DNA of 64,000 bases, taken from assembly GCF_965363235.1 (NCBI RefSeq), contig NC_134847.1, forward strand, positions 63,024,439 through 63,088,438, given 5' to 3'. Below the pieces are notes generated by a model. It was not told where the DNA came from, did not search any database, and worked only from the letters and a program-made list of their open reading frames with translations. This document shows positions 111-59,194 of this stretch, piece by piece. Source of the DNA: Mytilus galloprovincialis. Its lineage: Eukaryota; Mollusca; Bivalvia; Mytilida; Mytilidae. The position numbers were made by a program, and so were the translations under genes. Numbering within the stretch: the first letter of the stretch is position 1; each line of letters opens with the position of its first letter.

Positions 111-613
111 ATACGGCTGAATTTATCTATGTAAAGTCTACCCATAAATGAAAGAAGGTTTTCATTACTGGTGTAAAATTGCGCGTTTGAAATTCGCACA
201 GGTAGACATAAAACTAATTTTGTCGTATGACGGCATACATAAATGCAGACTCACGTAAAGTAGATATAACAAAAAACAGACTTACAGTTAAAATAATAAA
301 TAAAATAATGGTGTGGTTCAAAGTATGACGGGACACATAAGTACAGTTTCACGTCAAATACGGCTGAATTTATCTATGTAAAGTCTACCCATAAATGATA
401 GAAGGTTTTCATTACTGGTGTAAAATTGCGCGTTTGAAATTCGCACAGGTAGACATAAAAATAATTTTGTCGTATGACGGCATACATAAATGCAGACTCA
501 CGTAAAGTAGATTTAACAAAAACCAGATTTAACAGTAAAAGTAATAATAATAAATAAAATAATGGTGTGGTTCAAAGTATGACGGGATACATAAGTACAG
601 TTTCACGTCAAAT
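111..613. repeat. Two-unit tandem duplication of about 247 bp
   Basis: The block beginning ATACGGCTGAATTTATC at 111 starts again at 358, giving a unit of about 247 bp. The copies differ by a few substitutions and short indels, for example a longer AATAATAAT run in the second. Shorter, more diverged pieces of the same unit (GACGGGATACATAAGTACAG and its variants) continue to about 780. The array lies immediately on the 3' side of the minus-strand reverse-transcriptase fragment at 854-1630. I infer that it is the 3' untranslated part of that element. Confidence 0.85.
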
Positions 614-853
614 GTATATCATAAAAAACAGACTAAACAGAAAAAGTAGTCTTATTGAATAAAATAGTTTAGTCATTCATAGTATGTCAAGATCCTTAAG
701 TAAAAGTAATATCAATAAATGAAATAATTTTGCCGTTCAAAGTATGTGGTTTTACGTAACCACAGATTCACTTCAAATGAATATCTAAAAAAGACATATA
801 AAAGAATACTATAATACGTAATTAAGATGCTAACAAACGTCAGTACGCAAAAT

Positions 854-1630
854 CTATACTTCAAGACCATCTTGTATTATTTGTGAAGTTGATACGGAAT
901 ATTTATCAACAAGTTCCGGGTATCTTCCGATGAACTTTTTAACAAAAAGGACGAGACGTTCTTTGACATACCCCTGGTTCATCAATTTTCTGCTCAGACA
1001 CTGGTGACGTTTTACAAAGTCTGAATAGGAGCTGCAAGCTCTTGAATACCTAATAAGTTGGGAAATGTATATTCCATATGCAGGTGAAGTTGTTATATTA
1101 CTACTAAGGTGGGGGAAATTGATAATTTCAAAATTAAAATCGTCTCGTTTGTCATAGATTCTGGTACTGAGATGACTGTGTATGTCAAATTCGAGGTATA
1201 AGTCTAAAAATGAGGCAGAGGAAGCCGTGTCTGTGGTCTCTTTAATTTCTAGTTCTGGTGGGTATATTAATGGAATCCAATCAGAAAAGTTCGGATTGTT
1301 AATGGAAAGAACATCATCAATATATCTGAAAGTGAAATTAAATAACCTGGCTTCTTTGATCTTCTTGTTTTTGACAAGTGTCTGAAGGAACTCCGATTCA
1401 TATGAAAATAAGAAGAGGTCGGCAAGGAGAGGCGCACAGTTCGTTCCCATAGGAATGCCGACAATTTGTTGAAAAAGTCTACCTCCAAATTCAACAAATA
1501 TGTTGTCAATAAGAAACTCCAGCATACTGATCACTTGTTCCTCTGTGTAGTATGTTTTACCCTTTTGTTCCTTATTAACAAAATATGCCTTATGGTATCC
1601 CAAAGTGATAAATTTATAGCGTATGCTACT
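854..1630 (-). mobile_element. Reverse-transcriptase fragment, Penelope-like or other non-LTR family (C-terminal half)
   Basis: The minus-strand reading frame has the RT landmarks in order: GIPMGTNCAPLLADLF (fingers/palm), FRYIDDVLS (catalytic YxDD) and then a long conserved C-terminal part containing IYDKRDDFNF and YISQLIRYSRACSSY. The N-terminal half of the RT is absent. Similarity stops at about 1630, exactly where the inverted-repeat element at 1631 begins. This family is common in mollusc genomes. I think it is Penelope-related, but I see no GIY-YIG endonuclease here, so the clade is uncertain. It is a dead fragment. Confidence 0.85.
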
Positions 1631-3641
1631 ATAGACAGAAGAAAGATAGGTTTCTCCTTATTTTCTAATTTTTTTTTCTGACATCTAAGAATATATATAC
1701 ATATACAACTATTTTCTATTGTGATATGCAATATTTTCTACAACCGTTCTATATTAACGAAGAAATAAGTAAAAATGCATGTCAAAATGACGAATTGAGA
1801 GAACTTTGCCTCGAAATTGTTTAATTTCTGGTTAAATTGTTCACATTGTACGGAAAGAAAGGTACGGGAAGATAGATACTGACACGGAGATTGCAAAACT
1901 AGTCATTATGATCATCTCAATACTTGTATTTCTGTGTATAGAACGAAAGAAATGGGTCATGTCAAATTAAAATACACCGGTTTCGTCATTGTTGTTTACT
2001 ACACAATCGCCCGGTTTCGTCTATATATATCACCCGGTTTTTTTATATTTTTTTAAAACCAACAATTTATGAAAAGCAACATTAACACGGATCTGAACAT
2101 TTTCTTTCGAAAGAATTTAAATATATATTTATTATAAAGTAAACTTGGCGTGTTTAAATTTATTTACATTGGTAATTATAGTAATACATATTTTCCTTAT
2201 GAAAGGCGTATCCGTTATTTCACTGATCTTCAAACTAATTTTAAATAGAATATAAATACTCAATAGCAAACACTGATATCTAATTATTTTTTTAACATTA
2301 ACATTATGATATTTTTTATAGGTTTTGAGATACATCGCAATATGTGACCCCCCCTTTTTTTTACAGAAAAAACTAACGCAACTTTAAAATATCACCAAAA
2401 AGTATGCAGAAGTTTAGATTCATATAAGAAATGTGTACAGTTTAATGCAATAATTATAAATCGTTTTGAGATATGGCGCGACATGTTAAAAAAAAAACAC
2501 AGCTCCTGTTTTTCTTACAAAGTCCTGTAACTCAAAAAGATTTAATTTGATTTTCACTAAAAGGTTTACAGATCGTTTGACCATTTCAAGAAATAACTTT
2601 GTTAAGTTTCATGAAAACTAGATCAGTTGTTCTCAAGTTACGGTGCGACATTTTTACGCTGAACAGAAGGATAGACGGATAGAATGACTGATAGATGGAG
2701 GAACGGACGGATGGAAGGAAGGACAGACGGACGGACGGGCGGATGTATACAATAATACGTCCTCTCAAAATTGTGACGGGAGTGTAAAAACGCAATGAAA
2801 TGAAAAAAAAACTCTTAATTAAAGGTCAATAAGTTTTATTAGGATATCGGCAAAGTCGATTTATTTGTATATCTTCTTGACTTCCTAAGTCATTTTTGCT
2901 ATATGACTTATATGTTTGAAAATAATAAATAGAAATTGATAAAAAGAACTTCAAATTCGTCATTTAAGGGCAATGCAATAACTCCTTTAAGAACTAAATT
3001 AAATGTGAAAATTTTATAGTAAATGGACAAATGGTAGAGCTCAACATTTTGAAGATAATCATCTGGCCCTTTCGAATTGTCTATATATCTACGGTTGTTT
3101 TTAAATAATTGACATCATGCACTTTCCTGTTGGGTCAAGTGAGGTGAAAACAGCAAAGAATTCCAAACAAAAATACACCGTTCTTGAATTAAATAAAAAA
3201 ATGTGTAACAACTGAAAATTTCAAATTTCACGAACCAGATAACTTGATCGGACATAGCAAACAACTTCACTGGCGGTTTTTTTCAATAAAAAAATAATAA
3301 GACATATTATTTATATTTAAGTGTACGCACTGACATGTCACAAATGCTTAAATGATATATGTTCATAATGACAAGTTTTGCAATCTCCGTGTCAGTATCT
3401 ATCTTCCCGTACCTTTCTTTCCGTATAATGTGAACAATTTAACGAGAAATTAAACAATTTCGAGGCAAGGTTCACTGAATTCGTTATTTTGACGTGCATT
3501 TTTACTTATTTCTCCGTTAATATAGAACGGTTGTAGAAAATATTGCATATCACAATAGAAAATAGTTGTTTATGTATATATATTCTTCGATATCATAAAA
3601 AAAATAAAAAAATAAGGAGAAACCTATCTTTCTTCTATCTA
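1631..3641. mobile_element. Long-inverted-repeat DNA element (about 2.0 kb, arms about 290 bp)
   Basis: The sequence from 1631 to about 1916 returns as its reverse complement at about 3365-3641. Shared stretches include AGAAGAAAGATAGGTTTCTC at the outer end and GATACTGACACGGAGATTGC at the inner end. The arms differ by scattered substitutions. The interior (1917-3364) has no convincing reading frame. It includes an impure GGAC/GGAT-rich tract at about 2670-2745. The structure fits a non-autonomous long-TIR or foldback transposon. Its left end abuts a truncated RT fragment. The flanking duplication cannot be fixed; a TA dinucleotide is possible. Confidence 0.75.
2670..2745. repeat. Impure GGAC/GGAT microsatellite
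   Basis: A run of imperfect tetranucleotides (GGAC, GGAT, GGAA, GACG) on the plus strand, inside the long-inverted-repeat element. The minus-strand reading frame through it is repeat-derived, so I do not call it a gene. Confidence 0.7.
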
Positions 3642-3867
3642 TTAATGTTCCGTCATTGTGCCGGATGTTAGATACCATCGAGTCCGAACAAATTTTGCCG
3701 GTGTGGTTTAGACACAGTGATATCACAATCCCATAGTACGTAAGAAAAATTTCACCAAGTTCCAACCTTGTACACGAGTCGAATTTTATTTTATCTTACT
3801 CTGAAAGACAATACTTAACGGATAAGCAGTATTTATTAGTCACTAGTTTTACAGTTTACAAAGCATT

Positions 3868-4085
3868 GAATTTTTCGAAAAACTAAGGATTTTCTTATCC
3901 CAGGAATAGATTACCTTAGCCGTAATTGGCACAACTTTTTGGAATTTTGGATCCTCAATGCTCTCCAACTTTGTACTTGTTTGGCTTTATAAATATTTTG
4001 ATATGAGCGTCACTGATGAGTCTTATGTAGACGAAACGCGCGTCTGGCGTACTAAATTATAATCCTGGTACCTTTGATAACTATT
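3868..4085 (+). repeat. Dispersed bivalve repeat, copy A (GACGAAACGCGCGTCTGG core)
   Basis: About 220 bp containing, in order, ATTACCTTAGCCGTA, GGATCCTCAATGCTC, GGCTTTATAAATATTTTGAT, CACTGATGAGTCTTATGTAG, the GACGAAACGCGCGTCTGG core and AATCCTGGTACCTTTGATAA. The same order of blocks recurs at 56770-57075 and 57185-57435 (plus strand). It recurs more partially at 30130-30235, 30480-30650 and 59255-59390 (minus strand). It is a short non-coding interspersed repeat. I see no tRNA-like head or poly-A tail that would make it a SINE. Confidence 0.8.
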
Positions 4086-5370
4086 CACTGGCTCGGATGA
4101 CTTGGTTGATTTGAGACTTGTTCCCATAAAAAAATATATATCTTCGGTGACAAGACTTGTCCTGATGTCAATTATGAACAGGATATGATACTTGAGTACA
4201 CGATAAAAATAAATATACATATATTTATATAACCGTTTGAGGTATAGGCAAGATGTGCATATTTATCTACATGTCCAACAATGAATTAGTACTACAATTG
4301 GATTTCTTAACTTATGTTATATTTTATGCATACGGGCCCAGGTATTCTCAAATATTTAGCAAAGTCATGGTGGTGTCCCTAAAACTTTCAATATTTTAAA
4401 CTTTACTTCTAAGAATCTATTGTTTTTAAGCATTTGGATAAATGAAAATAACTCATTATGTATTAATGACATCCCGTCGAAGAACTTTATGAAGAACAGT
4501 TTGATTTCTTGCAAAAATAATAAAACAGTTTATAACAAACTACGCAACAAACATTAATATAAAATAGTAACGTATAGAACTCACCTGAAAGTAAAACAAA
4601 CATTATATTAGACACAAATTTCCTAATCCCCGCATACTTTAATAATGATAATAAAAAGATGTGAGAACGCTTGAGTTGGTGGTAAGGTCAATAATAAAAA
4701 TGTAAACGTTAAAGTGTCATCACTTACCTGATGGCTATATATATGTATGTCCACATCGGATTACAACCTGCAAACAATGTATTCAGTCGAACACCTGTAA
4801 GATACTGATTTAATGTGTAATGAAAAGTAAAGTTTACGGATATCTGAACGTGTAATTTATAAAGTATAAAGATGCACATAAATAATTTTAATTTTAATAG
4901 GATCTAGTTTTTTTTTTTAAATAACCCGATTTTATGATAAAAGAAAAATAAATACATGTATACTTAATATGATTTCTTGCGGAGCTGAATGACAGTACGA
5001 AACGTGTGAATATTTTCGTCAAATGTATATATCGTTGTATTATAATGCAACCTTTAATTTGTTTATCATTAGGTTCATATCATAAAATCGTCCTTTTGAA
5101 GTGACTAACATTTGAAATGTCTTTAATTTATATTTTAGATACACAGCATATATTGACATATACTATCAAACTCTTTCGAATAAAAACAATAAGCATTCGT
5201 ATGAGGTTCTACGTTCAAAAGAAGGAATTTTATTTATTTGAATTGTTAAGTGTTCAAATTCATTGCTATGAGACACAACTAAGCTAAACCAAAACTGACG
5301 TGATGGCATGAACACCAAAATGTGCGAGGTCAGGTGTTGAAGAGAGGGGGATGATAACAAAAGGAACATT
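4086..5370. other. AT-rich stretch, nothing recognised
   Basis: No reading frame with recognisable content, no clear repeat boundary and no structured RNA were found on either strand. Short open frames here look like chance. Confidence 0.6.
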
Positions 5371-12607: not shown

Positions 12608-12719
12608 ATTATGAGTATGAGAAAAGAAAATATTGACATTTTAATCATGATTTATGTCATGAATTGGATAATACAACATATAGTCCTAAATTTATTAATT
12701 TGACATATAATACGTTTAA

Positions 12720-12758
12720 AGGACACCGGCCACTTCAAACAATTATTTGTAAAATAAA
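12720..12758 (+). repeat. Left terminal inverted repeat of the transposon
   Basis: Begins AGGACACCGGCCACTTCAAA and pairs with 18997-19035. The first 24 bases are identical between the two ends, and two mismatches occur in the following 15. Preceded by TTAA. Confidence 0.95.
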
Positions 12759-12990
12759 TCGTAATGAGATGTAAACATCGTTAATTTCGTAGATAAGTGT
12801 GTAACACATATCGTATGTCTATAAAAACAGGTTGTATCAGCTTGAAATAATCCTTCTCCGGACATTACCGATAATTACCGACATTTAATAAGCATCGTCC
12901 CGAATGAGTGCGTGACGTCACTTGTGTTGTTTACATCCGCTAGACCACGAGAATCATACTATTTCCAACTAAAATTAAACAAAGTATACA

Positions 12991-14324
12991 ATGGATTTCG
13001 ACGGACAGGACAGTGGCGATGAGCCATTTATAACTGCTGTTGATAATATTCAACCGTATCAGTTCGAGCCTGTTGTTCATCTTGAACAAAACGAAGTGAG
13101 CATTCAAAACCAATCGGACTCCTCTGAGGAAAATTCTGAAGCTGAATCTAACGCCTCTGACCTGCAAGACAGCCGGATGGATAACTTGGCATAGTATGGT
13201 TGATTGTATAATACTGTCTAACATGATTACATACTTCACATTACCAAGCCTCCTTAGATGTAAATGTTTTCGTCCGTTTTTTGTTCTTTATAAAAAAGGG
13301 GGGTTGGCATGTATATCATACACATATGCATATAGTATTTTACACTCGTATATAATTTTACACTTCCTAAACTACATACAGAGTCAAATAAGTCATATAA
13401 ACTATAAGTTTTAATTAAAAAAACTATTCACTTGACACAATAATATTGAATTGATGTTAAAATGCACCATGCTATTCATTTCACATTGATGCATTGTAAC
13501 TTTTTTTTTATGAATAACTTGACTGTTTTTTACAAATTTACATAATAATGGATCTTACTGAGGATTTATTGTAAAATATTTGCAAGTCAAATCTTCTTGT
13601 ACATTAAATTTCCCAGGTGTGACTGTAACAACTGCACTGCAATGCCCACTGTGAACGAATGCCTTTGTTGCAAGGAAGTTGGTCCGGTTGCAGAAAAGAT
13701 GGAAGATGGGGACCTTGTTTGTATAACAGACCATGAGGGGTTCACTGGAAACTGTCTAAATAGACATGTCACTGAGGTCTCTTTGTATGACTTTGTTGAA
13801 AGGCAGGGACCAGTAGACGATAATGAACCAATTCATGAGTAAGATTAATTTAATATTGATGATTAAACATAAACATAACTTCACAACTATTATTTTTTAA
13901 TTACAATTTTAATCAGAAACATAATAAAATAAATGTCAAGACCAAGCTGATGATGAAGTGCAAAAAAGGCTAAATAATAAATCTGGATAAACATACAAAA
14001 TATACATGTATCATCATAAAAATATGAACTCATCTTGATCACTTTTTTCAGCATACTGATATATGTCATATATCAGTTAAAATAATATCCTTGTTCAAGC
14101 TTTGAGTATCACTGTATCACTTTGTAAAAGAAAATGAATAATCTGTTAAATACGCTATTTTTTCAGATTATATAGATATGTTGCGTACAGACGGTTCACT
14201 CGTTGGATCTGGCATATACTTGGTAAAAAAAGAAGAAAAGTGATACCAGCATGTACAGTATTAAAAAATTCGTGAGGCTTTCCCGTCTGAGGACTTTACT
14301 GGGTTCAAATATGCCAGGCCATGA
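12991..14324 (+). CDS. P2X7 ballast-like Cys/His domain protein carried by the transposon
   Basis: Three exons are inferred: 12991-13193 (donor GTATGG), 13617-13838 (acceptor TTTCCCAG, donor GTAAGA) and 14167-14324 (acceptor TTTTTTCAG). Exon 1 encodes an acidic, Ser-rich head of about 67 residues. Exon 2 carries CDCNNC, ECLCCKE and CITDHEGFTGNC, a Cys/His set suited to binding zinc. Exon 3 carries LYRYVAYRRFTRWIW, then LGKKRRKVIPAC and REAFPSEDFTGF. This order matches the cytoplasmic ballast domain of vertebrate P2X7 receptors, which also occurs alone in invertebrate proteins. There are no membrane segments, so this is not a channel. Two oddities: joining exons 1 and 2 gives TAG where the family usually has Trp, and one extra A in the A-run at about 14263-14268 shifts the end of exon 3. 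Its role in the element is unknown; DNA or RNA binding is only a guess. Confidence 0.7.
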
Positions 14325-14507
14325 TAATTTGAAAAAAATAATTGTGGTTAAAATCTGGGTAAATTTCATGTTTCCACAAACAGAGCTTTGAAAGATAAAA
14401 ACACTTGTCTACATGATGTAAATTGTGGTAAATACAATGTAAATGGTGAAGAGTTATATGGAACAATGATCGCATAACATATTTAAACAAATGTACGAGA
14501 AATGATG

Positions 14508-17500
14508 TCAGTTTCTAGCAAAACGACTTCTTCGATGTCTTATTAGCTCCTCCTTATCAAATTGAGGGTTTGATGCTGTTAGTGGAGGAAGTCTCTGGTA
14601 TACAACATTAAAGTCCTCTAAGGCTTCTTTAATGCTTGACAAGTTATTTCGTCTGTCAAAAGTTCTTTTCAGAAGAGATCCAACATAATCTACAAGACAA
14701 ATATAAACTATATGTAATAGCTCAGCCTCTAATTTACATAACTAATTAACAGTGCGAATTTATAGATGCAATGACATTACTTGCATGTGCAGTCTGCATT
14801 TTTAGAATATTACCTCTTTTAATTCCAATTGTACAAAAAGAGACTCAGAATACTGTTAATAAACCAATATTATTACAAAATAAATGTCTTGCATAGTGCT
14901 TTTTATGTTTTATTATTGAACCAGAAAGTTTTATGAAATCTTACCATAGGTCGCTTGAACTTTCTGCGGTTTGACAACACATTGCTCTCCTTTTTTTGCT
15001 TTAGGGTACGACTTTCTCATTTCAGGATGCCTGCTTTTGTGACAGCTTGCTGTCTATTTCCATTTTCATTGTAATGCAATGCAGCAATATAAATTCTGGA
15101 GAAGAAGAAAAAACATTACAAAATCATTTAACTCATCAAATTTTAAGATAAGGAACCTACTTAACTTTTTAATTTACTGCTTTAAAGTTTAAAATTAGCC
15201 ACTGATGAGTTTATGTGTACACTATGTGGTGACCATGATTACAGTACAGGTACACACCTTTCATTATTTTGTTTGGTATTGGTTATTTTAACATATTGTA
15301 CACAATCAATTACCTTGCTTTCATTGCATATTGGAAGAAGTGGGTGTTCTTTGGTGCATACTGGTTCACAAGAGAGTGATACACCTCAAGGCCATATGTC
15401 TGGTGCACTGGTGACAGCTTTTTTAAATCGTTTAGCAAATATTTGCTTTCGATTACTTCCAGAACAAGTTTATGAGATCTGGAACCTAGAAATTAAAATT
15501 GAATATCATTTATTAAAAAGATAATATGAGCCATTGAAATTTATAGATTCAAAACTGAAATGTCTCACTTGATGCAAACATTTAACCATATATGGCTATA
15601 AATGATGAGGCATTTTCTCAAAATAGTTCCTATTTTTTAATTTGTACAAAGCCATGAAACACAACAATTGGCCCTTTTTCATAGAACATGAAAACCATTT
15701 GTATTTCAAGATATTTGTTTACCTTGTTTAAGCCAAGCTCTTTGTTCCTCAAGCTCTCCATGGATACATTGCGGAAATACATCAGACTCGTGGACATGTT
15801 TATTGATGATGTGGTTGGAAATTGATGTCCATTTGTGTATTTTTTCGTTTTGATCTTCCCCACTTGATGCAGCTACCCAATATGTATGGTTAACAATGCT
15901 CTTTATCCATTGTCTTATGTCTCCTGTGTCTTTTATTTGGCTCTGGTTTCCAACTTTTTTTATATTCCTGCAAGTAATGGATTAAAGAAAACATTTTGAA
16001 ATGTATTTTTTTATCAACAGCCTAAGAGTATTGCGTATTTATAAAACATGATTTTTTTTCTCACAATTTGATAAGATAATACAATTAGCTCTAGTAAAAA
16101 GTTGATTGAGTTATACCTTTTGCTATATGCCATACATCGAAATAATGATTTATTTCTGGATGGTTGTCCTTCATGAACTTCTTAATCATAACATGTCTAT
16201 CTGTGACAAGCGTTGAGACTTCAATATGGTTAGTGTCTATAAGAAGGGACAAACCCCTCTTAAGTCCTTCCAATTCCATATGGGTTGACCCCTTAACTTC
16301 ATTGGACTGAAAAAAAATAAGCAAACACTGAAATTATTTGTCAACATGATTTATGAAAACAATGTGATTTGGGGGAAATTCATGAAATACTGGCCACTGG
16401 ACAACAGCAATAAATCTGTAGTATGTGTGTTTAACTATTTACTTCTAAGCATTTATACAGATCTTATTTAAATCTTAAATATACATATAAACAATGAGAT
16501 TTGGGTAATATTCATGAAATACTTGCCACTGGACAGCAACAATCAATCCGTTTTAAGTAGTATGCATGTTAAACTGTATTTATTTGTAATCATTTTAATA
16601 CAGATCTAATTTAGACTTATATTGAGAAACCCATCAAGAGTTAAATTAATGCAAACCTGAACAAGCTGAATGTCCAATATTTTATTTGTGTTCAAGTCCA
16701 TTAGAGTGTAACTGCCATATTTAGCACTATAACCAGGACTGTCACACCTTCCGTCGCCACCAAGTACTACTTGTTTATCTGGACCTGCAATATTAAAAAG
16801 TGTAATGCGTGAAGATTATAACACTCTTATTTATATAATTAACAATAAAATTATTCTGTACAGAAAATATATTAACAAGATACCTAATTTGAGAGTGGGA
16901 GAAAATGAGGATAGAAATAAACATGTATTCCAGGAAATAAATAAAAAGATACGTAAGTATAATAAAAGAAGTAACACTACGAAGAAATATACATACCTTG
17001 CAAGGAAGTTATCAGATCTGCTTGCTGGGAGTCGAATTCATAGATAACTGCACATGATGTGTATGCTGTTTGCAGTCTTCTAATCGAGCGTTCACTAATG
17101 CCTTTTAGTTTCATTTGATTAAACAGTCTTACAATCTTGGCTGTATTGTTCCCGCTAAACATTATGGCACTTGCTAGCAAAAGATTTCCCCATGGTAGTC
17201 TTTCATGACAGTTTTGGGATTTCCACTTGTACACGTGTCCAAAAGCACATACAGAAGATTCAATAATTGGAACGCATCGACTGTTACACTCTCTGCATAC
17301 TGATAGTAACTGAAATAGGGCTGTTTCAGAGACCATGTAATATTTTTCTTCAACTGGATCATTACATTCTTCCATTCTGTAATTGCTTGTTTCTTCCTCA
17401 TCGTCAGATCCATACTCATCGTCTCCATCTTCTTCCTCGGACTCGTCATAAATATAATCCGGATCATTATCATATTCATCTACATCATCTTCATCATCAT

Positions 17501-18652
17501 CAATCTCATCATTGTCATCCAAGTTTTGTTCGGTCGGTACCGGTGCAAGGCTACTGCTTGTAATATTTGCGGTTATCGTGTTTTTCTTTGATGTGGTGAA
17601 TATACTTGCTGAATCAATATCTGAAGGGTTACACTGAATGCCTTTAGATTTTCTCTTGGGTTTTAACGTTTGGTTTCTTCTTGTTCTCTGTGGAATGGGA
17701 TCTGTTTGATTTTTCTGTATTTTCATGTTTGTGTAATCGATATTAAAAGATTTTGACTCGAATGTTTTTGGTATAACTGCCGGAATTTCTTCCTCTTCCT
17801 GAATCTCCATACTGTCAGGTGCGGGTGGCGATTCAGTTTCAGTGTCAATGGAGTCTACGGACTTATCTAATGAATCATTAAAGGCCTCTTCAAGAACCTA
17901 TAGGTGAAATTAAATTTTTATTTTAAAATTTGCTTTCATAAATAAACCATACATGAATGTAAAAGAAATCATATATCCTGTAAATTCACCTTTTTTGTCG
18001 TTGTATGCGGGAAAGGACCGGGTCGTAGATCTCCAAGCGACTGATTTCATAAAAAAAAAAATGCGAGAAAAATATAAATCCCAGAAGTCCTTGACTTAGA
18101 TAATTTTTTATTGGATCGTAATATTATGTAAAAGAATGTATACCTTTTCATGTAAATAAGATAAATGCCTTTGACAATTTTTACTAGAACCAAAACGGGA
18201 AGAAAGATATACAAATATAATAAATAATAAGTATTGAAACCATACAGATAACCATGAACATATTTTTCACAAAAGTTTCGATGGATAATAAAGAGAATCA
18301 ATTGTACCTGACGTTTCTGTCTTTTTTCGAAGGCCGACCTAGGCTTTTTAGGAGAAGATGGTCCTTTTTCTGCATCCACAACTACAGGAATGTCGGGCAT
18401 GGCGTCATCTTTTAAGGCTGCCTTTGTACCCGGATATCCCAATTCTGAAAGTCTTTCAGGGTGTCTGCTATACTGATGGAGGGTAAAATGTTTAGAACAA
18501 ATTCTGCTGTGCTTAGACGGTGTAAAGTCCTGTCGTTTACAATAGTGAACCCAAACACGATTTCTCTGAGAATCTTTCGGAAAAGTAAACCAATATATAT
18601 TTTTGTCACATTGAGAATTGCTATTGCAACCGTAAACCGCACAATACGGCAT
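14508..18652 (-). CDS. THAP-domain DDE-like transposase, nine exons
   Basis: Exons on the minus strand, all with GT-AG ends: 18652-18308, 18040-17990, 17897-16997, 16784-16657, 16306-16117, 15967-15723, 15485-15314, 15095-14945 and 14689-14508, coding for about 788 residues. Residues 1-90 form a THAP finger: Cys4, Cys9, Cys52 and His55, with FPKD, an inner Trp34 and a closing AMPDIP in place of AVPTIF. A basic stretch and a strongly acidic stretch (about 259-301) follow, then a Cys-rich patch (CRECNSRC). Exons 4-7 hold the likely catalytic region: GGDGRCDSPG (about 441-450), LVTDRH (Asp511), YFDVWHIAKG, and GLEVYHSLVN with a candidate Glu. Two single-base slips occur: one base is missing in the A-run at about 15954-15962 (exon 6, 245 nt instead of 246), and one is missing in exon 8 near 15035. 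They could be real damage or homopolymer errors in the assembly. Catalytic assignment is inference. Confidence 0.8.
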
Positions 18653-18996
18653 ATTTACACTTATATTTACGAAATAAAAAATAATTACTTCTTACTTTTA
18701 AATAATTCTACTACGTAAAGATTTGCTTTTACATAAAACTAAAACATGGATGTAATATGAGATATGAATGGAACCCTATACTCATGGCATTTCTGTATTA
18801 TCGATATAGTATTACCACTGAGAATATACAGCTGGTAACACAAGTGATGTCATAGCCGTGAGCCTCGTTATCATGTCTGAAAATATGCATACAATGGCGA
18901 TCAAGGCCATCTGTGTATACACTACTGATTATCACATTACATGATAAGAAATACATATTACAACATGAAGATATCAATTTTATTAACTAAGAAGGT

Positions 18997-19035
18997 TTTA
19001 TTTTACACATGATTGTTTGAAGTGGCCGGTGTCCT
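18997..19035 (-). repeat. Right terminal inverted repeat of the transposon
   Basis: The reverse complement of the left end, reading inward as AGGACACCGGCCACTTCAAA. Followed by TTAA at 19036-19039. Confidence 0.95.
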
Positions 19036-19302
19036 TTAACAGAATGTGCAAAATATACTGGAAATTAAACGGGTTTAAATGAAATATGAATACCTTGTTA
19101 ACTACACGATTTTCAGAAAATGTATTTTAACATGTAAATACATGTAACGGTTCTTATCATATAAGGGAATTGTAAATGCTTTGTATCATTTTAAAATTTC
19201 TACGTGTTGCACGTTTCAGAATCCTTCAGTGCAAGGGATATGTATCCACATATTAATTACACTACACTAACCATGAATATTACTTATTGTCATCATGTTG
19301 CA

Positions 19303-24248: not shown

Positions 24249-24788
24249 CTATGTGGTAAAAATGTCCTTAGCTAGTTTGGTCAACGAAACATCGTATGGA
24301 TCCACCAAATCGTGATGGTGTCCATAAAATTTACGAAGTGTCAATTTTAATCTGTCCTCCTCATAACTTTGTTGGAGCAGTTTCTGCGTAAGGAGCACAC
24401 TCCTGTATATGAAGTCCGTATAGTGTGAACAAGCACGTGAATAACGTATCAATTGTGATATGTAAACACCATACGAAGGGGCAGAGGGTATGTTACTGCT
24501 GAGAAATGGGAAATTGATAATTGGGAAGTTGAAATCGTCCCGTTTATCATAGATTTTCGTGTGAAGTCGTCCATCTACGTCAATATTGAGGAAAAGATCA
24601 AGGTATGAAGCAGTCCTTCTAGTATCAGTGGTATCCTTAATTTCAAGTTCACTTGGATATATGAGATGTAAGTATTGGCTGAAATATGGGTTATTCAATG
24701 ATAGAACATCATCAATATATCGGAAAGTAAAATTAAAGAATTTCGCAAGGTGCTTTATCTTTTTGTCTTTTAGAAGGTTCTGAACCAA
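24249..24788 (-). mobile_element. Reverse-transcriptase fragment, C-terminal half
   Basis: The minus-strand frame of about 179 residues begins just before FRYIDDVLSLNNPYF and runs through YPSELEIKDTTDT, SYLDLFLNID, IYDKRDDFNFPIINFP and YGVYISQLIRYSRACSHYTDF to the normal C-terminus. It aligns throughout with 854-1630 but belongs to a somewhat different subfamily. The 5' part of the RT is missing beyond 24788, as expected for a 5'-truncated retroelement copy. Confidence 0.85.
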
Positions 24789-24789
24789 A

Positions 24790-26550
24790 ATTGACCTTTT
24801 AATACAAATTATGTTTATTTAAGGGGTCATAGCTCCATAAATTGTAAAGGAAAGTGCTGGAAATTTTTTGTTGGTCTTAATAGTATTATCACAAGAATTT
24901 CTACGTGAAATTTGTAATATTTTGGCCCAATTTAAAAAACATTAAAAATTCAGGGCCAATTTAAGCCTTCGTGAACCTTCTCCAAATTTAACGGGTTTAG
25001 AAGGAATTTCAATGGTTTGACTAAAACACGAGTTATAATTATAAAAATTATATTTTGTATATTAGGTACATGTAAATGCATCGTGTCAATTTGAATCTCT
25101 GTGTTTTACACGCTTTAGAATCATTAATTATTGTTAAGGTCTTTCCTCTACCCAAGGAAACCCCTTATTGTTTTTCTCATTTTTTTTTCTTTTTATTTTT
25201 TTCACTTGCAGCCTTTTTTTTTACATGGACTCCCCCTGTTTCTATTGGAGTTATCAAGACCAAAAATGGACCGTTGGTAGATCTCATCATGAGATTTTAC
25301 CAGATGAGGCTGTTTAGGATTTCATCATACTCTGTAGAAGTTATCTACCTTTTATTGTTTTTTTTTCAACATGCCCTCCCCCTCGTTGTTTTTAAAGATA
25401 TCATGACCTTATCTGGACATTAGGTAGATCTCATCATGATGTATTACCATATGAAGCTGTGTAAGATTTCATAATCCCCTTTGAGAGTTATGTCCTCTTG
25501 AAGAAATTTGTTTTATTTGCATTTTTCTTTAAAAGTATTAGAGATAGAATCGATTTGAAAATAGCAGCATGTACAAGAACAGATGACAATGTTTATAAAC
25601 ATAAACAATTCATTTGTTACTAAGCCTTATAAGGAAATATTTTCCTTTGAAAATCATAAATAATTTTTGAAAAATTCAATTTCCAGAACCAGAAGTCATA
25701 GAGACTTGGAACCTTCACCAATAATCTTTAATTCATGTGACCTTTAATATGCACCCAAGGTCAAGGGTCACCGAGTGCAAAAAAAAATTACGCTGCAATT
25801 TCAAGCTTACATATAAGGAAAACGATAAGACTTTGCTGCATACATACAGCGTATAAATTGTTCCTCTCGACGAGCTCTACATTTTATACAAGAAGCCCAA
25901 AAAAGTCCGACCGTCTGTTCAAAAGTTACAACGGGATGATTCTTAAAAGTATAGTATTGTGTGTATATCTTTTTAAAGGTAAAAGATATCAACCTACTAT
26001 AAACTGCAAAGATGATCAGTAATTCAGGACCTTCAATTTGAGGTCAATGTCAGGTCATGATGAAATTTCACCTTGACCTTCACAGTATACGATGACCTTG
26101 ACCATGTGATATTTGAAAGGTCAAGTGGTCCTGAGTTGAATGGTGGTAGTCCCATGTCTACACGACTTCCGGTTCACAAGTTTGGTATTGCATCATATAT
26201 TTGATGATTGATTGTGACATTGATGAACTTTGGAATTGTCCCAATTTTTTTTCTACAATGATATGCTTCATCTGCAGATCATTTATCATTTAACAGATTT
26301 GAGATATCTATTGTCGTTTTAGAGATAATGCAGTTTGGAGATTTGCGAGCGGAGGCATGTATTTCTGAATCAAAAAGAGCTTACCACTTAAATGTTTTAG
26401 AAATTGAAAAGGTTAACATAGTTATATGTTTTACCAAATACCAAAAAACATTCTATGAAAAAAAAAAACCTAAATCAATTTGCAATTTTCAAGTTTTGCA
26501 TTGACTTTGTAAGTTTCATAACTTCTTTTTATATAGTTGATGTTGCATCA
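24790..26550. other. Repeat-derived non-coding DNA
   Basis: Contains an internal duplication (GGTAGATCTCATCATGAGATTTTACCAGATGAGGCTG near 25280 and a diverged copy near 25425). It also has a segment rich in AGGTCA/TGACCT half-sites (25740-26140: CAAGGTCAAGGGTCACC, ATGTCAGGTCATGATG, CCTTGACCTTC). The 115-codon open frame at 25076-25423 runs through T-rich repeat and is not supported as a gene. Confidence 0.5.
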
Positions 26551-57944: not shown

Positions 57945-59194
57945 GTAGGACTCTAAAGTGCGATGGTACTCTAAAGTGCGATGGTCACGCTAAAGTGCGA
58001 TGGTCTACGCTAAAGTAAGATGGTGTATCAAGGCGTGACGCTAAAGTGCGATGGTTGTTTTGTTTTGTACGATTGTATATCACGCTAAAGTGCAATGAAC
58101 CAATATAGTAAAGTTCGAGGGATTAGAGCTAATTTCCTAATGCTTGTAGAGTAAGACTTTAGTTAGCTTGCTTGCATATATGCAATATTCGCCAAGCTTT
58201 CTTCTTTTTCTTTGTAATGAGTACCAATAGATATAGGTAGATGTTGTATGAGTGCCAATGAGACAACTTTTCATCCAACTGCATTACAAATTTATAAAAG
58301 TAAACCATTATAAGTCAAGATACGGCCTTCAACACAAAGGCATCACTACATGTTATATTTTCATACACTGTACAAAATAATGTTTTAGCGGACATTTTAT
58401 GATTTACGCATGAATCTACTAAATTACGAACGAAAAGGTGAGAATTCAATTAACTTGAATCCATTCTTAAGCTAGCATGAAGAATTTGACCAAAGCGATG
58501 TCCTATTTAATAATACGCTGGGGCCTTACTATTTTGGGTACTCATTTGTGTTTTGAATAATGATAGAGATTCACATTTTCTTATGTTTAGGTTAAGAGTG
58601 TTCCATAGTTTTGTTGTTGCAGAGATGAAATATTCAAAATATAAACGGGTCCGTGTGTCGACTTCTGTAATATTATTTCGTGTCTTGTATTATGATCATG
58701 CCTACTTCATACTGAATCAGGCAATAAATCTATTAAATATTTTAATGGGGACCGCAAAGTAGAAAAAAAACTGCAACATAAACAATAATTTCAATTATCC
58801 GTTATAGCTTCTAATATAGAAACAAGATTAAGGATACTTTTGTATCTGTATATTAAAATGGTCGACTGCAGGACATAAGTCCTTCTTCCAGAACCCGGAG
58901 AAAAACATCTACTTCAGCCAACAAAGCACGGTTAGGTTTAAATTAAGTAAGTCATAGACATTTAAAGTTATTAATCAAATACAATTTTTGTATTTTAAAC
59001 ATTTATCTTTCGGCATGTTCATTTTTCGTTTGAATAAACGACTGTTCACGTCATAATTCATTGTACGTTTATTAAGCTATACTTTCGCGGACAATCGCAC
59101 TTTAGCGTATGTAGGCATCGCACTTTAGCGTAGACCATCGCACTTTAGCGTGACCATCGTACTTTAGCGTCCCCATCGCACTTTAGAGTCCTAC
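57945..59194. mobile_element. Inverted-repeat element with iterated CTAAAGTGCGATGG ends
   Basis: The outer ends are a perfect inverted repeat starting GTAGGACTCTAAAGTGCGAT (57945 onward; mirrored at 59194 inward). Behind each end the motif CTAAAGTGCGATGG is reiterated: six times on the left (57952-58098) and five times on the right in reverse (59092-59188). Spacing is about 18-35 bp, and the variants include AAGTAAGATGG and AAGTGCAATGA. The interior of about 1 kb is AT-rich. It holds a copy of a common mussel repeat (58220-58340, GTATGAGTGCCAATGAGACA) and no recognisable transposase. The flanks read TGCATAT and TGAATAT, a possible 7-bp duplication with one mismatch. It is probably a non-autonomous DNA transposon whose iterated motif binds its transposase (inference). 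Confidence 0.75.

Follow-up and report, generated by a model that had tools for sequence, protein, structure and literature searches.

Introduction

Kolobok DNA transposons of the Kol0 type encode, together with a DDE transposase, a second protein named KolX (Kojima & Bao, 2022, PMC9587614; here and below, statements from the literature refer to excerpts of the cited papers). KolX is presented in that work as the cytoplasmic ballast domain of P2X7, resembling P2X7 residues 476-595 and carrying seven conserved cysteines; P2X7 itself is proposed to have originated when a P2X4-like gene was fused with KolX, and Nanor is taken to be a further case of a domesticated KolX. According to a 2018 Xenopus paper, Kolobok transposases usually bear DDE, THAP and H2CH domains (PMC6004289). 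The subject of the present work is an element at positions 12716-19039 of a 64,000-nucleotide stretch of the Mytilus galloprovincialis genome (NC_134847.1, positions 63,024,439 to 63,088,438 of the forward strand; this whole stretch is what we call the window, and positions are counted from its first base). We hold it, with little room for doubt, to be a Kolobok DNA transposon of the Kol0 type in a copy that is no longer active, where the label Kol0 is taken from its second gene, KolX.

An earlier note on this DNA had proposed that a ballast-like protein travels as the second gene of a Kolobok element and that mobile elements might have been the source of the P2X7 tail. The first proposal is supported here by the profile match of a sibling copy and by the pairs of genes found in siblings and other families, and the second coincides with the conclusion of Kojima & Bao (2022; PMC9587614), whose paper has also overtaken the note's statement that no element with this pair was known to have been described. 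The pairing of transposase and KolX and the origin of P2X7 were thus already published in 2022, and the window element is a further example. Among the matches listed for the literature from 2021 on, KolX is named only in Kojima & Bao (2022), and no functional study of KolX is included.

Results

The element lies between two copies of its TTAA target site, at 12716-12719 and 19036-19039 (neither with a strand), just inside which are terminal inverted repeats at 12720-12788 (plus strand, starting 5'-AG) and 18967-19035 (minus strand, ending CT-3'). The first 36 bp of these repeats are near perfect (34 of 36 bases identical), and weaker similarity extends beyond them, a repeat search giving arms of 73 nt, TTAA included, that are 78% alike. 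The termini, AG...CT, follow the 5'-RR / YY-3' pattern of Kolobok. When perfect 20-bp inverted pairs flanked by TTAA and no more than 10 kb apart were sought in the whole window, the pair at 12716-19039 was the single instance, and no TTAA-flanked 20-bp inverted pair appeared in 20 mononucleotide shuffles of the window; allowing up to two mismatches in the 20 bp added three pairs, nested at 1754-3520. The inverted ends, the TTAA on both flanks and the two spliced genes converging between them are as the earlier note had described, with the transposase on the minus strand and KolX on the plus strand. Its silence on the state of those genes has to be amended, as both are broken in the window copy.

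KolX occupies three exons on the plus strand: 12991-13193, an acidic and serine-rich N-terminal part whose end was read from the sequence; 13617-13838, with the CxCxxC, CC and CIT zinc-cysteine blocks; and 14167-14324, with the YRYVAYRRFTRW and PxC blocks and an end set by the stop codon of a sibling. The plus-strand gene with cysteine blocks described in the earlier note is present. In the window copy the codon at the junction of exons 1 and 2 reads as a stop, and a frameshift takes exon 3 into a stop at about 14273. The corresponding exons of the sibling, a copy on another contig that we label L036, form an open frame of 188 residues, and this spliced protein matches Pfam P2RX7_C with an E-value of 1.2e-17 and 64.9 bits, against a gathering threshold of 23.5. 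In the PDB it also matches the sequences of four P2X7 chains: three have E-values of 4.4e-5 to 5.8e-5 and one has 0.021, the chains aligning to it over 471-594. The single-exon KolX of a relative (C4, described below) matches P2RX7_C at 3.5e-19 and, with E-values of 2.6e-10 to 7.3e-9, these four P2X7 chains as well.

The minus-strand gene encodes a THAP-DDE transposase and, like KolX, contains introns. Its first exon (18308-18652) holds the THAP domain (PF05485, E 2.6e-15). A tentative exon 2 (17990-18040) is missing about 115 nt that siblings possess, and exon 3 (16997-17897, 300 codons) provides an acidic linker and the pre-catalytic part. Exon 4 (16657-16784) contains GGDGRCDSPG, with the first D; exon 5 (16117-16306) contains VTDRH, with the second D, and DVWH, the DxxH signature; exon 6 (15723-15967) contains the H-H-C-H zinc-finger set; and exon 7 (15314-15485) contains LEVYHS, with the E that aligns as catalytic. 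Exons 8 (14945-15095) and 9, the C-terminus (14509-14689), complete the gene. Exons 3 to 9 were located from GT/AG signals and from the sequences of siblings. All five motifs of exons 4 to 7 align with the C4 relative, whose frame of 611 codons is open and in which the H-H-C-H set likewise lies between DxxH and the last E, where most Kolobok lineages have a zinc finger. The two D residues and the E are the putative catalytic residues, as judged by motif and alignment, and both the THAP finger and the DDE-like region described for this gene in the earlier note are present. With the boundaries chosen, the reading frame is lost between exons 5 and 6, and comparison with two other copies (L036 and L042) shows a break in exon 8. 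Taken with the stop and the exon 3 frameshift in KolX, this broken frame makes the window copy look inactive. A direct repeat of 70 nt, 83% alike, lies between transposase exons 4 and 5, at 16357-16426 and 16489-16558.

Nine matches in the host genome, including both ends of the window copy, were obtained with an 85-base query taken from the left end. L036, the full-length sibling, measures 6435 bp from TTAA to TTAA, carries both genes and is 95% identical to the window copy over 6217 aligned positions (Kimura two-parameter distance 0.052); its transposase is damaged by one stop and by VTYRH in place of VTDRH. Of the other copies read in detail, L037 is shortened, with KolX exons present but broken; L038, of 1717 bp, keeps only exon 1 of KolX; L040/L041, a single place on C1, has the right end only; and L039/L005 has a related left end and a diverged piece of KolX. 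L042, which came from the transposase search, retains part of the transposase and the right end and showed no KolX match. The window copy, L036 and L038 all have TTAA at either end, and the flanking DNA differs among the copies as judged by eye.

A scripted search of the window region and of 14 loci recovered both ends with TTAA in the former and at four of the latter (L036, L038, L045 and L046). At L037 it picked another, smaller TTAA-flanked pair; both Kolobok ends of L037 do adjoin TTAA, but the left end is one base short and was therefore missed. In its own right, L037 (C11:18582460-18587500) carries at 3501-4117, in the first KolX intron, a TTAA-flanked insert of 617 bp with inverted ends of its own, GGTAGATGGGGTGTCT. 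L045 (7344 bp) and L046 (7559 bp) make up a second family, in which different inverted ends flanked by TTAA surround both genes. At C4:50664948-50665550 and 50666865-50668697 (L054, L057 and L058; here C4) a single-exon KolX and the 611-codon transposase frame are convergent. No pair of inverted ends was found at C4, C13:2749479 or C7:29102892 with the settings used, where the stretches taken may not span both ends. The expectation that copies would carry the same pair of genes accordingly holds for the full-length L036 and, as a convergent pair, for other families, but shortened copies have lost one gene.

To place this pairing on a genome-wide footing, the host genome was searched with two transposase queries, which after merging gave 69 transposase loci, and with KolX exon 2 and P2RX7_C, which gave 124 loci for KolX. 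KolX lies within 20 kb of 33 of the 69 transposase loci and is convergent with the transposase in 32 of these 33, where about 0.25 neighbours would be expected if loci were spread evenly; since copies of the same family are not independent, these figures count loci and not events. When only the first transposase query and KolX exon 2 were used, 12 of 20 loci were paired, all of them convergently. Transposase and KolX are not paired by accident. Inspection by eye showed THAP matches next to several paired transposases, on their outer side. Since unpaired KolX loci might belong to piggyBac, piggyBac transposases were also sought across the genome; at least one of their loci (C11:8422821-8423615) was seen by eye at a distance of about 4 kb from a KolX match at C11:8427782 on the same strand.

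Three of the 92 KolX loci without a detected transposase were read (L059, L060 and L061), and they proved to be one common repeat, 87-97% identical in the listed stretches. In L060 the repeat (193-3996, 3804 bp) has TTAA-flanked ends of 12 bases with one mismatch, and its matches to L059 and L061 start or stop within a few bases of these ends; the script found no end pair in L061 or L059. Every L060 frame of at least 80 codons falls over the KolX region. The repeat shared by the three carries a broken KolX and no transposase frame, L060 and L061 being 96.6% identical over 2711 bp.

Conservation of KolX was examined in an alignment of ten rows (window, L036, L045, L046, L047/56, L051, L052, L053, C4 and L055). 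CxCxxC and C-[IV]T are kept in all ten, the CC pair in nine (L046 has lost one C), and PxC in all nine rows from which exon 3 was recovered, L052 being the row without it. The residues of rat P2X7 that contact guanine nucleotide are R546, H547, R574, R578 and K583, and their positions in KolX were set by the alignment of L036 with P2X7 and by motif matching. Arginine stands at the R546 position in 8/8 rows that reach it and at the R578 position in 8 of 9, the window frame breaking before it. The equivalents of R574 and K583 are replaced in 9/9 and 8/8 rows, respectively, and that of H547 is Y in L036, the one row in which it was looked at. Only R546 and R578 are reported to be retained outside deuterostomes (Rump et al., 2020, PMC7016195). 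For KolX exon 2, nine comparisons between families gave nonsynonymous divergence (dN) of 0.31-0.58, with synonymous divergence (dS) of 1.7-2.6 in three pairs and, through saturation, not computable in six. Because dN lies far below dS, KolX exon 2 appears to be under constraint between families.

Three further features of the window lie outside the element. The nested inverted repeats at 1754-3520, with TTAA at several points, pair at 1754/3520, 1821/3453 and 1832/3442 (up to two mismatches in 20), and may represent a further TTAA element or form a large hairpin. Open frames at 857-1657 and 24252-24818, both on the minus strand, each contain FNFTFRYIDDVLS, which we take to resemble the catalytic block of a reverse transcriptase, and neither frame has a Pfam match at E 0.01. 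Finally, short arrays at 57953-58024 and 59081-59186, about 1.1 kb apart, have nearly the same 19-bp unit in opposite orientations by consensus, and exact matches to its 14-base core occur only in the first array; they are perhaps subterminal repeats of a small element.

Discussion

Several observations weigh against assigning the window element to a Kolobok family with a P2X7-type KolX. Apart from THAP, no Pfam model exceeded its cut-off for the transposase of either the window or the C4 relative: MULE reached 21.4 bits in the window against a cut-off of 27.6, and MULE and Mutator both stayed below cut-off in C4. Taken alone, KolX exon 2 of the window scored 12.3 bits against P2RX7_C (E 0.16), below threshold, so that the profile match expected by the earlier note held for the spliced exons of L036 but not for this exon; the exon by itself is too short for the model, which is why the spliced protein of the sibling was used. 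Constraint within the family is weaker and depends on the method, dN/dS for exon 2 between the window and L036 being 0.035/0.245 by NG86 and 0.049/0.115 by YN00. The paired loci within one family are not independent, and a partner within 20 kb is lacking for 36 of the 69 transposase loci and for 92 of the 124 loci of KolX. It is likely that the unpaired loci reflect the limits of the search (matches were made exon by exon, and only the best candidates received a score), the presence of other Kolobok lineages, and copies derived by deletion. The earlier note had named two findings that would speak against its reading, the absence of the plus-strand gene from other copies and the lack of a match to P2RX7_C; both were looked for, and neither overturns it.

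What KolX might do for the element can be framed by analogy with known Kolobok biology. The THAP domain would bind the element ends, the DDE domain would excise the element and paste it into TTAA, and KolX would be a conserved, element-encoded helper, probably within the transposition complex. The likeliest role for KolX is that of a structural zinc-binding helper of the transposase. The nearest competitor, which we consider unlikely, is that KolX is a passenger that the element no longer needs or never did. High-copy derivatives with a broken KolX do exist, the window KolX is itself broken, and no functional test of KolX was found in the excerpts of the literature examined; yet families that have diverged at roughly half of their residues retain the cysteine blocks, and dN between families is far below dS.

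It is tempting to go further than a structural helper and to speculate that KolX supplies the Kolobok transposase in trans with a guanine-nucleotide function that the P element transposase holds in cis. The P element transposase bears a THAP domain and requires guanosine triphosphate (GTP), bound in an insertion domain (PMC7776569), its superfamily is named as a close relative of Kolobok (Kojima & Bao, 2022, PMC9587614), and the P2X7 ballast binds guanine nucleotide (PMC7016195, PMC9859053). If the idea were right, the P2X7 ballast would be a former transposition cofactor reused in an ion channel, and its guanosine diphosphate site a relic; the role of the nucleotide and zinc sites in the ballast is described as unknown (PMC9859053). 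We nevertheless think it improbable, as two of the four contacts counted are missing and the part that GTP plays for the P element transposase is called unique among studied transposases (PMC7776569).

That the P2X7-tail-like gene is instead a host gene, lying by chance within a Kolobok element or inserted into one, has very little to recommend it. Stand-alone ballast-like proteins have indeed been reported as predicted animal genes, in oyster and limpet among others (Rump et al., 2020, PMC7016195), and the many KolX loci lacking a transposase within 20 kb would suit such an origin. However, KolX sits in the same place and orientation between the ends of L036, L045 and L046, close pairs are convergent in all but one case, and the three unpaired loci that were read are a single repeat with TTAA-flanked inverted ends in L060. 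A chance nested insertion is rejected because the L036 sibling has KolX in the same place.

Just as remote is membership in piggyBac, the other TTAA-specific superfamily, a few families of which encode KolX-like proteins (Kojima & Bao, 2022, PMC9587614). The shared target site is outweighed by the AG...CT termini, since 5'-RR/YY-3' is given for Kolobok as against piggyBac (PMC9587614), and by a transposase with THAP, DxxH and H-H-C-H. No Pfam piggyBac domain was found at E 1 in the window transposase exons that were scanned for it (3, 4, 5, 6, 7 and 9), nor at 0.5 in the C4 relative, and the cysteines kept here are mostly missing from the KolX-like proteins of piggyBac (PMC9587614). We reject piggyBac membership on the termini, the transposase domains and the retained cysteines. 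KolobokP, defined by a His-Me nuclease and by long direct repeats at its termini, is rejected as well, as the two element ends are not linked by any of the 20 direct-repeat families listed and the second gene is KolX, not the nuclease.

With the window element read as a Kol0-type Kolobok, another genome and a genome-wide count of pairing lend support to the published transposon origin of the P2X7 ballast domain; no new principle is added, and the role of KolX in transposition is made testable. The element resembles the Kol0 lineage, whose type is Kolobok-1_XT, in its TTAA sites, RR...YY ends and DDE transposase with DxxH, in the zinc finger before the last E and in the possession of a KolX of the P2X7 ballast type (PMC9587614). 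It differs from Kolobok-1_XT in being another family. RAG1L-RAG2L transposons are built from other proteins, with an unrelated transposase and accessory fold. What they have in common with the window element is the arrangement of a DNA transposon with two convergent genes, a transposase and a second protein (PMC7204232). The Nanor/ZCD proteins are closer to KolX, being short and having the same cysteine blocks at the C-terminus, but they are described as animal genes (Rump et al., 2020, PMC7016195). P2X7 differs from KolX in possessing the P2X channel part, and its ballast (Pfam P2RX7_C; 6u9v and others) has R574, K583 and H547 where KolX has changed the first two and, in L036, has Y for the third; the two share the seven zinc cysteines in the same blocks, the equivalents of R546 and R578 and the final GFK(Y) block.

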